This document shows positions 12,609-23,473 of a stretch of DNA of 64,000 nucleotides, piece by piece. The stretch comes from Metaphire vulgaris (taxonomy: Eukaryota; Annelida; Clitellata; Crassiclitellata; Megascolecidae). The notes beneath the pieces are model-generated. The model saw only the letters and a program-made list of their open reading frames with translations. It ran no database searches and was not told the origin of the DNA. Position numbers and translations under genes: made by a program. Each line of letters begins with the position of its first letter. Position 1 is the first letter of the stretch. The stretch spans positions 12,387,845 to 12,451,844 of the forward strand of contig CM030852.1 of assembly GCA_018105865.1 (NCBI GenBank), read 5' to 3'.

Positions 12609-13423
12609 TCACTGTGATCGCAAGGTGAACACGTCGACTCCGCCGCTGTGTCCGACCAGCAGTTGTTGTCGACCGGCATCGTAACACAGCCTCTCCGGAT
12701 ACTCGATGATAGCGCTGTCGCCTTTCCCCAACAGAATCCGCATCCATCCGAGATCCGGATCCAACTGGATCACCTGGTTGTAGTCGAAGTCCGTAACGAA
12801 GACCCGATCGGCGGCGTCGAGCGCCAGGTAGCGCGGGTAGGTGAGGCGCTGGTCGGGACCGAACGACAGGAACCGCCTGACCATCACGCCGTCGCGGTTC
12901 ACGGCGAAGACACCCTCGGTCACGCTGTCGCGCCACCAATGACTGACGACGAGGACCCCTCTCCGTGTCTGGACCGCGTGGAACGGATCCTGGATGTCCG
13001 ACGGCAGCCGGATGCGTTGGATCAGGACGCCCCGGCGGCTGTAGAGTTCGACGTGGCACGGTTGGCCTTTGCGCGGTAGAAGGACCCGGCCGTCCCTGAG
13101 GACGGATACCGTGAACGGCCAATCCACGTCCGACAGCCACGCGGTCAGGTCGTCGCCGGATTTCCGCCAGAGACATTTCTTACCGGAGTCGGTGATGTAA
13201 AGACACGTGTCTTTCGTACTCGACCCGATGTCTTCTGGTTTCTTCGTCTCCTCTAATGCGATTACTTCGATCAGTCGGAAAGGCTGCTGGTCTTGAAATA
13301 CGTTCAAGGAATTCGGAGATTGGCAGAGGACGTAGATGCGACTGTCTAAAGTCGCCATTCCGTAAAAGTATTTAGCCTTCAACTGTAAACTTCCGACAAA
13401 ATTTACATTGGACGTATAGGTCA
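12609..13423 (-). CDS. Exon 8: terminal beta-propeller
   Basis: The acceptor is CTTTTAG. The 271 codons run to TGA at 12609-12611. Blade-like repeats include FYGMATLDSRIYVLCQSPN, VSVLRDGRVLLPRKGQ, VELYSRRGVLIQRIRLP, AVNRDGVMVRRFLSF and RVFVTDFDYNQVIQLD. These are typical of NHL/six-bladed propellers (strand, then ..DG.v.v.D, then ..v..fd..G). GC content is clearly higher than in neighbouring introns. Confidence 0.8.
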
Positions 13424-22400: not shown

Positions 22401-23473
22401 CTTTAAGTTTAGATGGAGAAAACTCGAGATGTTAAAGGAAGTGAAGGAAATTGTGACTAAGATCTTGCTGCTTGACCTTGGTTTAGTCAGCGGATGGATG
22501 ATGGAATTGAGTTCCAAGGTTACGGTGAAGCATATGAAACAGCACCGCTTGCAGATATTGGCAGATGACTGATTCGGAGGACGTGTGAAAGTGGAACAAA
22601 TACTTATATTCAGTATCTTCTTCTTCTTCTTTCTTTCCTTCCGTCTTTCCCTATTGGGTTGGATATTCAGTATAGTTTATAGATATATCTACTACTACTA
22701 CTACTACTACTACTACTACTACTACTACTACTACTAGTAGTGTACTACTACTACTACTACTGGTAGTGGTAGCACTACCACCACCACCACTGCTGCTACT
22801 GCTACTACTACTGGTGGTAGTGGTAGTAGCTGCTGCTGCTGCTAGTAGTGGTGGTAGTCTTACTAGTGCTACTACTACTACTACTACTAGTAGTAGTAGC
22901 AGCAGTAGTAGTAGTAGTAGTAGTAGTAGTAGCACTGCCACTGCTGCCAGCAGCAGCAGTAGTAGTAGTAGTAGTAGCAGTGGTAGTGGCAGCAGTAGTG
23001 GTAGTGCAGTAGTAGCAGTAGTAGCTGCTGCTGCAGCTACTGCTACTACTACTACTACTACTACTACTACTACTACTACTAATAATAATAATAATAATAA
23101 TAATAATAATAATATTATTATTATTATTATTAACAATAATAATAAATATATCAAGACAATTAGTACACAGACCTCCATTTTCTTCCAAGTATTTGACAAT
23201 GTGTTCCTGTTTGGAGTCTCTTAGACACGAAATCAGTTCGGCAATTTTGTGACCGTTAGCGACGCAGTCCAAAAGTTCTTCGTTCTTATCTTGAAACGTC
23301 GGCTTCGCTCTGATGCGATCCACTTCTCTCTTCGTAAGCGCTCGACAGCCAAGGATCTTATCCAGTAATCCGAACTCAGGATCGACGAAATCCACGAGGA
23401 ATTCTCTGTGCTGACTTAATCCGTTCAATCCATTTCCTGTTCGCTTCGGAGCTGTTTCCGGCGATGAGGCCAT
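12609..23473 (-). CDS. Multi-domain CARD x3 / TRADD-N-like x2 / F-box-like / beta-propeller protein, 8 exons
   Basis: Exons on the minus strand: 23173-23473, 21466-21768, 20187-20558, 19475-19518, 18044-18224, 16518-16811, 14416-14778 and 12609-13423. All junctions agree in phase (1,1,1,0,1,1,1), giving 2,673 coding bases and 890 residues. Predicted order: CARD (about 20-100), CARD (115-195), TRADD-N-like (240-322), F-box-like (341-400), CARD (415-495), TRADD-N-like (530-618), beta-propeller (625-890). CARDs are homotypic assembly domains of apoptosis and innate-immune complexes; propellers usually bind ligands or partners. No nuclease, kinase, NACHT or caspase domain is visible, and there is no signal peptide or membrane segment, so it is probably a cytosolic adaptor or sensor. 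That role is inferred; domain calls are from pattern, not search. It could be two genes split near exon 4-5, but the 44-base exon is needed to reconcile phases, which favours one gene. Confidence 0.8.
13480..13745 (-). mobile_element. LINE ORF2 C-terminal fragment
   Basis: The minus-strand reading gives GRISGIKTKGRPRRMLLDW and TYAEVKEEARRREKWKQW, matching the end of LINE ORF2 (GRPKxRW ... DRxxWR). It sits in the intron between exons 7 and 8 of the CARD gene. Confidence 0.7.
13770..13850 (+). repeat. 5S rRNA-derived fragment (5S pseudogene or SINE3-type head)
   Basis: Contains CACCGAAGTTAAGCAACGTT and CAGTTAGTACTTGATCG, the internal half of metazoan 5S rRNA, preceded by TGTACGACCGGTGTCCGTC. 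It matches only part of 5S and breaks down after TACTTG, so it is not a working 5S gene. Confidence 0.7.
14416..14778 (-). CDS. Exon 7: second TRADD-N-like domain
   Basis: The acceptor is TTGCAG at phase 1. It encodes a helical leader (DTNRFLTEQRFVERI), then RGIVLWVHCTSIDAFVNLKL, EEGATNVLEDISDMLRS and RFPVRTTVIDTQTFDKTF. This follows the same order of strand, Cys, helix and strand as exon 3, and both end at phase 1, so exons 3 and 7 are probably duplicated from one another. Donor GTAGGT. Confidence 0.65.
14842..15019. mobile_element. MITE family 1, copy 2, perfect TSD
   Basis: Ends CAGGGTGCGATTTG and CAAATCGCGCCCTG, flanked on both sides by ACAACAAC. Same G-rich interior as copy 1. Lies between exons 6 and 7 of the CARD gene. 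Confidence 0.85.
15085..15240 (-). mobile_element. LINE 3'-tail repeat
   Basis: AAAATCTCGTGGATTTATATGGCGC followed by the GCAGCACAACAGTAGCTG block. The same block occurs at 28866-28960 and 56670-56760, where (GTAA)n precedes it. It is a truncated retroelement tail. Confidence 0.55.
15245..15660. repeat. Compound (ACT)n, (ATA)n, (TACC)n microsatellite
   Basis: About 415 bases of trinucleotide repeats: mixed ACT, then ATA/TAA to about 15450, a short TACC run, then mixed CTA and (CTA)n to about 15635. In the intron between exons 6 and 7 of the CARD gene. Confidence 0.95.
16005..16110. repeat. (ACAG)n-like microsatellite, first block
   Basis: Imperfect CAGA tetranucleotides. A second block follows the adjacent MITE at about 16312-16372. 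Confidence 0.85.
16111..16282. mobile_element. Short inverted-repeat element
   Basis: Starts CAGTGTTTATTCTAG and ends CTAGAATAAACGCTG. The target duplication is unclear because it lies in a CAGA repeat. Single right ends of the same family occur near 30945-30958 and 45669-45685. The ends resemble those of the element at 11430-11615. Confidence 0.7.
16518..16811 (-). CDS. Exon 6: third CARD
   Basis: The acceptor is TTGCAG. CARD-like helices are NNDEFLSEMIQP, FPERLKTSDCLTDLQFRCI, SPNDVLHAVRSL and IIAFRECLRQTGQDIVADVL. The donor GTTAGT lies immediately before what would otherwise read as a stop (GG/GTTAG), so the stop is intronic. Confidence 0.75.
16830..16998. repeat. (ATT)n microsatellite
   Basis: Nearly pure ATT for about 165 bases, starting about 20 bases upstream of the acceptor of CARD-gene exon 6 on the minus strand. 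Confidence 0.97.
17102..17520 (-). mobile_element. CR1-like LINE C-terminus with tetranucleotide tail
   Basis: Minus-strand peptide LTFRALHDPYFPDYLVALVH, then KFGERSFTQGNTILWNALP and KLKTYLYQTSYEL stop. The 3' UTR contains TTGCGCTATAGAAATTG and ends in (GTTA/TAAC)n at 17107-17122. This copy shows that the TATAGCGC blocks elsewhere in the window are LINE 3' ends. Confidence 0.8.
17484..17850. repeat. 46-bp minisatellite
   Basis: Units containing ATTTATGAATAATCATGGGC and GAATATGATAATAG repeat with a 46-base period (AATAG at 17676, 17722 and 17768). A diverged unit at 17486-17530 overlaps the LINE, suggesting the repeat grew from LINE sequence. Confidence 0.8.
18044..18224 (-). CDS. Exon 5: F-box-like segment
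   Basis: The acceptor is GTTATAG at phase 0. It encodes LFLELPLELQDMILQRVC, then FSWFQHLKKRRFISRLLRHL. The LPxEL..xIL start and a later hydrophobic-Trp-Phe helix are reminiscent of F-box proteins, which would tie it to ubiquitin ligases, but this is weak. Donor GTAAAT, phase 1. Confidence 0.55.
18772..18970. repeat. (ACT)n microsatellite
   Basis: About 200 bases, mostly ACT/CTA with interruptions, in the intron between exons 4 and 5 of the CARD gene. A smaller (AAT)n lies at 19107-19166. Confidence 0.95.
19475..19518 (-). CDS. Exon 4: 44-base microexon
   Basis: The acceptor TTTTAG and donor GTAAGT are both strong. It encodes GLEEHSESILNPQRQ and converts phase 1 to phase 0, which is exactly what exon 5 needs. 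Without it, exons 3 and 5 do not join in frame. Confidence 0.7.
19650..19818. repeat. (AGT)n microsatellite
   Basis: About 165 bases of AGT, pure in the middle, ending at the left edge of a short DNA element. Confidence 0.95.
19819..20148. mobile_element. Short DNA element related to 8707-8935
   Basis: Starts CAGGGCCGACTAGAGAATTTCC and ends near TGCACCCTCTCTCCTCAGGCC, the inverse order of the element in the innexin intron. A clean target duplication was not found. Confidence 0.55.
20187..20558 (-). CDS. Exon 3: TRADD-N-like domain
   Basis: The acceptor is CTTTCAG at phase 1. After a helical leader (LARAEDEIAASIARLLVD) comes VGNSVVLYFLCS, then LSQLKRFWTEGRMANLAAEL and KFSVTVKWNEKEYRET. The pattern (hydrophobic strand ending in Cys, helix with WTEGRM, then strand and acidic helix) resembles the N-terminal domain of TRADD and related invertebrate proteins. 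Donor GTATGA, phase 1. Confidence 0.6.
20728..20960 (+). mobile_element. LINE ORF2 C-terminal fragment
   Basis: Reads KKRGRPRMRWTDGVHETAH, then TLEELNEMTKNREEWRELI with one frame slip. This is the terminal LINE segment (GRPRMRW ... REEW). It lies in the intron between exons 2 and 3 of the CARD gene. Confidence 0.75.
21015..21415. repeat. Compound (ATT)n, (AGT)n, (GTG)n microsatellite
   Basis: About 400 bases of trinucleotide repeats ending roughly 50 bases from the donor of CARD-gene exon 2. Confidence 0.95.
21466..21768 (-). CDS. Exon 2: second CARD, GC donor
   Basis: The acceptor is TTTAG before ATTACAAAG. The CARD spans HECLVDLIETEDLIMRMFA, GVLNVRQKDFIASK, HEKNEALLDILRRR and FLVTIALSQGDQ. 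Phase 1 is maintained only if the donor is AAAG/GCAGGT (GC-AG). GT donors a few bases on would give phase 2 or 0 and fail to join exon 3. Confidence 0.75.
22108..22660 (-). mobile_element. LINE fragments, antisense
   Basis: A (GTAA)n tail with AAAATCTCGTAAAATTGTATAACGC at 22110-22150. At 22427-22600 is sequence close to 56890-57020 (GAATTGAGTTCCAA, CATATGAAA). At 22621-22660 is the inverse of the LINE UTR end seen at 7340-7395. Remains of more than one LINE. Confidence 0.6.
22688..23145. repeat. Large compound CTA/GTA/TAA microsatellite
   Basis: About 450 bases of CTA, GTA, GCA and ATA trinucleotides in blocks of alternating orientation, which could form hairpins. It starts only about 25 bases from exon 1 of the CARD gene. 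It produces very long poly-Ser, poly-Leu and poly-Thr frames that are artefacts. Confidence 0.95.
23173..23473 (-). CDS. Exon 1: N-terminal CARD
   Basis: Starts at ATG 23473 (MASSPETAPK). The CARD pattern runs from REFLVDFVDPEFGLLDKIL through ALTKREVDRIRAKP, QDKNEELLDCV and AELISCLRDSKQEHIVKYL. It ends at donor GTCTGT in phase 1. A large trinucleotide microsatellite begins about 20 bases into the intron. Confidence 0.85.

Follow-up and report, generated by a model that had tools for sequence, protein, structure and literature searches.

Proteins that couple death-fold domains to TRADD-N domains were described as lineage-specific expansions in marine invertebrates by Kaur, Iyer, Burroughs and Aravind in 2021 (PMC8195603). 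In the main text of that paper, the building plan is a death-fold domain before TRADD-N and a variable C-terminus, possibly a beta-propeller, in largely expanded families; the proteins of Amphimedon carry one to three death-fold domains. Here, we analyzed a stretch of 64,000 nucleotides of the Metaphire vulgaris genome (contig CM030852.1, C21:12387845-12451844; hereafter the window), and within it a minus-strand gene that appears to follow the same plan, with the order CARD, CARD, TRADD-N-like module 1, F-box-like exon, CARD, TRADD-N-like module 2 and propeller. The plan is already published. As far as the main text of that paper describes its families, our gene differs from them in having CARDs where DED is usual, in doubling the CARD/TRADD-N-like unit within one chain with an F-box-like exon between, and in an NHL-type propeller, whereas WD40 is the type named there. 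Source data aside, that text uses 'F-box' and 'NHL' zero times and 'CARD' four times. Relative to it, the doubled CARD/TRADD-N-like unit in a family of this kind appears to be new.

Other described proteins share parts of this architecture. Like vertebrate TRADD, the gene couples a TRADD-N-like module with a conserved serine (module 1) to a death-fold domain. However, TRADD carries a single TRADD-N and ends in a death domain at the C-terminus, with neither CARD nor propeller (PMC8195603), compared with three CARDs and a propeller here, and TRADD did not match the modules of the gene by Pfam or PDB profile. TRIM-NHL proteins and Thin also have an NHL-type propeller (the TRIM matches are weak), but our gene has a CARD head, and the Pfam scan found no RING or B-box in it. 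CARD modules are shared with the adaptors and sensors ASC, NOD1, CARD8, APAF1 and RIPK2, from which three CARDs in a single chain set this gene apart. An earlier note on this DNA knew of no described protein with this order. Our literature searches on TRADD-N, CARD, NHL, propellers and expansions agree, having shown no description of the order or of a two-unit architecture; the general type, however, is that of PMC8195603, and the order recurs in the same genome.

Our main reading, to which we assign a probability of about 60%, is that the gene is a member of a large, modular, probably intracellular family of sensors or adaptors, in which the propeller would trigger CARD assembly. We read it as part of a large family because relatives with the same order sit elsewhere in the genome, and the members are probable immune sensors. 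When we rebuilt the gene model of the earlier note, it was reproduced exactly: eight exons (301, 303, 372, 44, 181, 294, 363 and 815 nucleotides) from 23473 to 12609 encode 890 residues in a single open frame closed by a stop, with all phases consistent, and an in-frame stop lies six codons upstream of the start ATG in exon 1. The splice signals, described there as good, agree in phase, but intron 2 fits only through a GC donor, with no fitting GT. The exons are as follows:

23473-23173, minus strand: exon 1, start codon and CARD 1, ending in phase 1
21768-21466 (GC donor of the earlier note) or 21768-21462 (GT donor), minus strand: exon 2, CARD 2, its last third interrupted by a frame break
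20558-20187, minus strand: exon 3, TRADD-N-like module 1, GNS before VVLYFLC, phase 1-1
19518-19475, minus strand: exon 4, 44 nucleotides, phase 1 to 0, both splice sites kept in a tandem twin
18224-18044, minus strand: exon 5, LPLELxDxIL...WF..RRF module, F-box-like, unproven
16811-16518, minus strand: exon 6, divergent CARD 3, phase 1-1
14778-14416, minus strand: exon 7, TRADD-N-like module 2, without the conserved serine of module 1
13423-12609, minus strand: exon 8, NHL-type beta-propeller and stop codon

We searched the genome (728 Mb, 246 contigs) for relatives of each module. With 150 of 639 candidates scored, CARD was found at at least 150 places; all of them exceed the cut-off, and this listing omits the window's own exon 1. 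Including the window and its tandem twin, there were at least 150 module-1 matches (150 of 191 candidates scored), 21 module-2 matches, at least 146 propeller matches (142 of 343 candidates scored), and 35 exon-5 matches at E ≤ 1, mostly weak. The co-location counts leave out the window and the twin and use the 148 listed module-1, 19 module-2, 144 listed propeller and 33 exon-5 places. For module 2 and exon 5, matches were accepted up to E 1, many of them weak, and the places are not independent because small contigs are possibly alternative haplotypes and neighbouring paralogs are related.

The modules keep their order across these places. Module 1 lay upstream of module 2 on the same strand, at 1.5-10 kilobases (kb), in 13 of the 19 module-2 places, and in none was it downstream or on the opposite strand; shifted controls (2000 runs) gave a mean of 0.27 and a maximum of 3. 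For the propeller, 52 of the 144 listed places had module 1 upstream within 15 kb (downstream 1, opposite strand 0), against a mean of 4.4 and a maximum of 12 in 500 shifted runs. Exon-5 places had module 1 upstream within 12 kb in 21 of 33, a propeller downstream within 15 kb in 19 and both in 16, with shifted means of 1.3, 1.0 and 0.5 and maxima of 5, 5 and 4 (1000 runs). On the wrong side, module 1 was downstream of exon 5 at no place and the propeller upstream at one, and neither was seen on the opposite strand. A smaller exon-5 run, based on 23 of the 144 propeller places taken by eye and without a control, gave the same 21, 19 and 16 of 33. The chain from module 1 through module 2 to the propeller was present at 7 of the 19 module-2 places.

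The full order of CARD, CARD, module 1, exon-5 type, CARD, module 2 and propeller was found at C74:178847-187592 and C32:3288130-3298449, which are perhaps one locus in two haplotypes, because their module 1 differs by one residue. C74:195565-203548 has the same order from CARD 2 onward, its first CARD being beyond the stretch examined. These paralogs bear out the module order proposed before, although some of its domain names are unproven. Other loci carry CARD-CARD-module 1 with different or unseen ends, and in L049, L050 and L020 module 1 leads to the propeller, with exons 5-7 not found between. L049 (C32:5138360, plus strand) and L050 (C32:5284893, minus strand) are near-identical on opposite strands, each with CARD 2, module 1 and the propeller directly after, and represent an inverted duplication or an assembly feature.

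Splice phase is also shared. In the paralog loci, a phase-1 site was found within six codons at 34 of 34 exon-2 acceptors (32 exact) and 37 of 37 exon-3 acceptors (35 exact), and phase-1 donors within six codons at 29 of 30 exon-1-type and 35 of 35 exon-2-type exons; these counts include some CARD exons under both CARD labels, and L002, L006, L007 and L008 lie inside L013, L018, L009 and L017. At L053 and L054, the exons for CARD 3, module 2 and the propeller have phase-1 splice sites within three codons of the expected positions, consistent with growth via duplication of symmetrical exons. Phase 1-1 exons encode the CARD and TRADD-N-like modules (the start-codon CARD exon ends in phase 1), permitting duplication and shuffling. 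By module order and homology, the core of the family is CARD-CARD-TRADD-N-like, and one subfamily adds the F-box-like exon, a second CARD-TRADD-N-like unit and a terminal NHL-type propeller.

Outside this genome, the nearest relatives among the best 8000 candidates scored are 14 unnamed proteins, 110-262 residues long and apparently single exons (five CARD-2 type, nine module-1 type), from short contigs where the length is stated. When the 890-residue product was compared to 5.8 billion proteins, the best 8000 candidates by shared words included none at E ≤ 0.001, and residues 225-325 gave 136 candidates in the protein collection, none at E ≤ 1.

A tandem twin lies 40 kb off on the same contig. 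It holds exons 3-8 with their order and splice sites kept, and because of this recurrence the gene model is more than chance. Protein identity between the twin and the window copy is 94-98% in exons 3, 5, 6, 7 and 8. Over 2010 coding nucleotides of these exons, 33 codon differences were synonymous and 26 nonsynonymous, and neither an indel nor a stop was present; the ratio of nonsynonymous to synonymous substitution rates (dN/dS) was 0.24 (NG86) or 0.33 (YN00), both given without a significance value.

Regarding the CARDs, exon 1 matched Pfam CARD (PF00619) at 2.4e-9 (37.5 bits, cut-off 23.9), and its 37 PDB matches at E ≤ 10 (best 0.008) are all CARD-bearing proteins or fusions by name. Exon 2 matched the same family at 4.9e-6 (26.9 bits, cut-off 23.9), over residues 17-73 only. 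Exon 6 presented no Pfam match and three PDB matches, none of them a CARD. It aligned nearly end to end with the exon at the same position in L053 (L053:928-1209; 31% identical, E 2e-14) and nearly in full length with the L054 counterpart (E 3e-15). The L053 exon is above the Pfam CARD cut-off (2e-11, 44.2 bits) and the L054 exon just under it (7.6e-5, 23.1 bits, cut-off 23.9). Therefore, of the three CARDs claimed at the outset, CARD 1 and CARD 2 pass in the window and CARD 3 only in the same-position paralog L053. In the comparison with CARD adaptors and sensors, only CARD and CARD_2 were listed by the Pfam scan of the 890 residues. The earlier note had suggested a hidden Markov model search of this product with CARD, TRADD-N, F-box and NHL profiles: CARD 1 and CARD 2 exceeded the Pfam cut-off, but TRADD-N gave nothing and F-box and NHL remained sub-threshold.

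At exon 8, Pfam NHL (PF01436) reached 0.01 (16.3 bits), below the cut-off of 20. The propeller exons of L049 (5.7e-12, 45.5 bits), L020 (4.1e-7, 30.1 bits) and L053 (5.6e-5, 23.4 bits) were all above the cut-off, and that of L054 was below (0.15, 12.6 bits). The PDB matches of exon 8 were mostly NHL-type, including designed Pizza proteins (best 4.9e-14), PknD (3.8e-8) and Thin (1.1e-4), with weak matches to TRIM2, TRIM3 and TRIM71 (0.15-0.77); for most of them, the best stretch covered about one blade. The propeller is thus supported through its paralogs, although the window copy itself is sub-threshold. Exon 5 had been called an F-box or F-box-like stretch. Pfam F-box (PF00646) matched at 0.065 (13.6 bits, below the cut-off of 20.5) and none of the five paralog exon-5 counterparts had an F-box match at E ≤ 1, so the identity is unproven. 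In the alignment of exon 5 (A7), the residues L, P, E, D, L, F and L are invariant, with an F-box resemblance at the start, and exon 5 is a conserved module.

Exons 3 and 7 are also shared family modules, and exon 7 matched its counterparts in L053 (E 2e-7) and L054 (E 5e-11). Among 22 aligned members (exons 3 and 7 plus 20 paralogs), four (L034, L035, L041 and L047) matched PF20694 (TRADD-like_N) at E ≤ 1, all below the cut-off and on overlapping parts of the profile. The best was L035 (5.1e-4, 20.2 bits against a cut-off of 23.7); L037, outside this set, reached 18.0 bits. Competing Pfam families on the same members had a best value of 0.0053, and ASH, next by member count, 0.0088.

The serine of module 1 is invariant in 18 of 18 rows; after it come a hydrophobic strand and a cysteine that is likewise invariant (18 of 18). 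Directly before the serine stands N, H, Q or E, or K in a further row (L016), and the position ahead of that holds G, C or S. In the main text of PMC8195603, the TRADD-N 'uS' motif is a tiny residue plus serine at the beta2-beta3 turn, and in TRADD this serine contacts the TRAF2 MATH domain; the beta2-beta3 placement of the module-1 serine is our reading from sequence. Four PF20694 places in the same genome, three of them above the cut-off, likewise read N-S. By their motif, these four read like NCOA6. In module 2, the conserved serine is missing in 4 of 4 rows, and profile comparison with the same four places gave P 0.077. Module 1 and module 2 compared with each other gave P 0.0025 with a probability of only 11.8% (CARD control P 0.36), so their kinship is weak by profile and is helped by the fact that both sit after a CARD. 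In the PDB, exon 3 had five matches (the best, at 0.13, a hypothetical protein, the others 14-3-3-like) and exon 7 had none.

Several results weigh against the sensor or adaptor family reading and its domain names. Neither exon 3 nor exon 7 of the window matched PF20694 in Pfam, and naming them TRADD-N from the window alone was rejected for this reason; none of the nine unnamed module-1 relatives matched PF20694 at E ≤ 0.1. Module 1 matches the uS motif as written only in part, since no tiny residue directly precedes the serine. When the module-1 profile was set against the genome's four PF20694 places, P was 0.13 (CARD control 0.46), and PDB profile searches with alignments A1 and A3 retrieved no TRADD and one GntR regulator each (0.0041 and 0.013). 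Among the listed matches, 6 of 19 module-2, 12 of 33 exon-5 and 92 of 144 propeller places had no module 1 upstream. Exon 7 is the least constrained of the compared exons (dN 0.030, dS 0.060). The 5.5 kb upstream of exon 3 in the twin yielded neither CARD exon 1 nor CARD exon 2, so that copy may have lost the CARD-CARD head or be able to do without it. Taken together, the TRADD-N identity has the sub-threshold PF20694 matches of the paralogs and the invariant serine on its side, but exons 3 and 7 themselves do not match, and PDB and profile comparison do not support it. We lean toward TRADD-N for module 1 with some reserve, and for module 2 the chances appear evenly divided; both estimates were lowered on account of the non-tiny residue immediately ahead of the serine.

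The state of exon 2 belongs to the same side of the balance. The phases of the earlier note need a GC donor (AAAG/gcaggt, cut between 21466 and 21465), and a GT donor four bases past it (between 21462 and 21461) is in another frame. A gene model with GT donors only was tried and rejected, as no open frame was found among the GT/AG sites in the windows tested around the exons. In the frame of the GT donor, the exon 2 tail resembles the CARD-1 tail (z = 8.3 over shuffles), compared to z = -0.9 in the frame of the earlier note; the test pieces, 22 and 27 residues long, were picked by eye. A nearly invariant Cys-Leu near the CARD end is absent only from exon 2 in the latter frame, among ten aligned family CARDs. 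Up to the GT donor, exon 2 has 307 nucleotides versus 306 in the paralogs L020, L017 and L013 (in L026, L030 and L044 the pattern picked an earlier GT, giving 303), and a phase-1 GT donor lies near the expected end in 35 of 35 CARD-2-type paralog exons, not all of them independent. Because of the GT-frame tail, the Cys-Leu alignment, the paralog GT donors and the 307 versus 306 nucleotides, we read exon 2 as holding a frame break near 21520 in this assembly. The last 18 or so CARD 2 residues of the 890-residue product are probably not native, given the tail test and the lone loss of Cys-Leu. The break may stem from an error in the assembly, or it may be an allelic variant or a true lesion. A GC donor is not implausible, since exon 1 of the paralog L020 also has one at the expected family position.

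This break is the starting point for a rival explanation that we hold to be a tangible possibility at well under even odds: the copy would be a decaying or null allele with its head being lost, and exons 3-8 would serve as a head-less protein or be only recently relaxed. It would account for the break itself and for a frame that needs a GC donor and forfeits the CARD-2 tail, and it agrees with the duplication, whose homology stops at window position 21069, within intron 2, leaving the twin's exon 3 without a nearby CARD exon 1 or 2. Yet the dN/dS of 0.24-0.33, with the compared exons free of stops and indels in both copies, speaks against decay, as does the GC donor at its expected place in L020, and an assembly error explains the break equally. 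The twin, with no CARD exons nearby, would also fit the idea that the earlier note joined two genes, or alternative first parts, with exons 1-2 on one side and exons 3-8 on the other. We find this very improbable, as a stretch of about 1.4-1.55 kb holds both CARD exons and module 1, order and phase unchanged, in L026, L028, L030, L036, L038, L040, L043 and L044, and the script-joined heads of L026, L030, L044, L020, L017 and L013 read through with zero stops.

The propeller raises another explanation, which we consider unlikely: a post-transcriptional regulator of the TRIM-NHL kind, whose propeller would bind RNA and whose CARD and TRADD-N-like modules would only multimerise. The mostly NHL-type PDB matches, weak TRIM matches included, would suit such a protein, and the main text of PMC8195603 links TRADD-N families with RNA-directed immunity. 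Against it, scanning the 890 residues with Pfam at E ≤ 10 brought up neither RING nor B-box. Moreover, CARDs typically occur in death and immune assemblies, and a family as large as this one is not typical of conserved developmental regulators.

CARDs nucleate homotypic filaments, and NHL propellers bind ligands or RNA. If the gene is indeed a member of a sensor or adaptor family, its propeller would bind a ligand, namely a microbial, viral or damage-derived molecule, and binding would free the CARDs to nucleate a filament and recruit CARD-bearing effectors. Module 1 would dock a MATH-type or similar partner through a serine like the TRAF2-contacting one of TRADD, and module 2, lacking that serine, may have a different role, such as binding another partner or keeping the protein shut. 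If exon 5 were an F-box, ubiquitination could be a second output. A similar logic has been proposed for TRADD-N proteins with propellers (PMC8195603, main text). A more specific and rather doubtful version is that these proteins act as 'double-switch' sensors: one NHL-type propeller would gate two CARD/TRADD-N-like units in series, of which only one has the serine, and the F-box-like exon could couple them to ubiquitination. If true, a single ligand event would both seed a filament of CARDs and tag a target for degradation.

Apart from the gene, the window contains other features. Near it, on the minus strand (5922-6945), two open reading frames (ORFs) match innexin at 2e-47 and 7e-22, representing an invertebrate-type gap-junction gene. 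Three minus-strand ORFs (4125-4763, 17187-17636 and 60327-60812) look by eye like the ends of reverse transcriptases of long interspersed nuclear elements, without a Pfam match at 0.01; that at 17187-17636 sits in intron 5 of the gene. On the plus strand, the ORFs at 43250-44056 and 52812-53912 are alike by eye (YQIKWEDHL.. and WQIKWDDHL..) and may be propeller exons of another family. Pfam found no propeller in either; the second opens with a long Glu-Arg repeat and matched exon 8 weakly (E 0.06), and the first had no such match. At 38086-39077, plus strand, three ORF copies that resemble one another (..SFQMAHYFSWHFESSRKKLRQNILTIL..; first 60 residues compared) are spaced by about 350 bases and form a tandem repeat. 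The segment 13760-13860 looks by eye like 5S ribosomal RNA; Rfam gave no match there, or anywhere in the window, at gathering thresholds, and ARAGORN found none in the window.

For the biology of this family, two CARD/TRADD-N-like units with one propeller would allow testing, in one animal, the co-evolution of a repeated assembly module and its ligand head. Furthermore, the phase 1-1 exons, the twin with no CARD head nearby and the many paralogs would make the exon shuffling of innate sensors directly observable.

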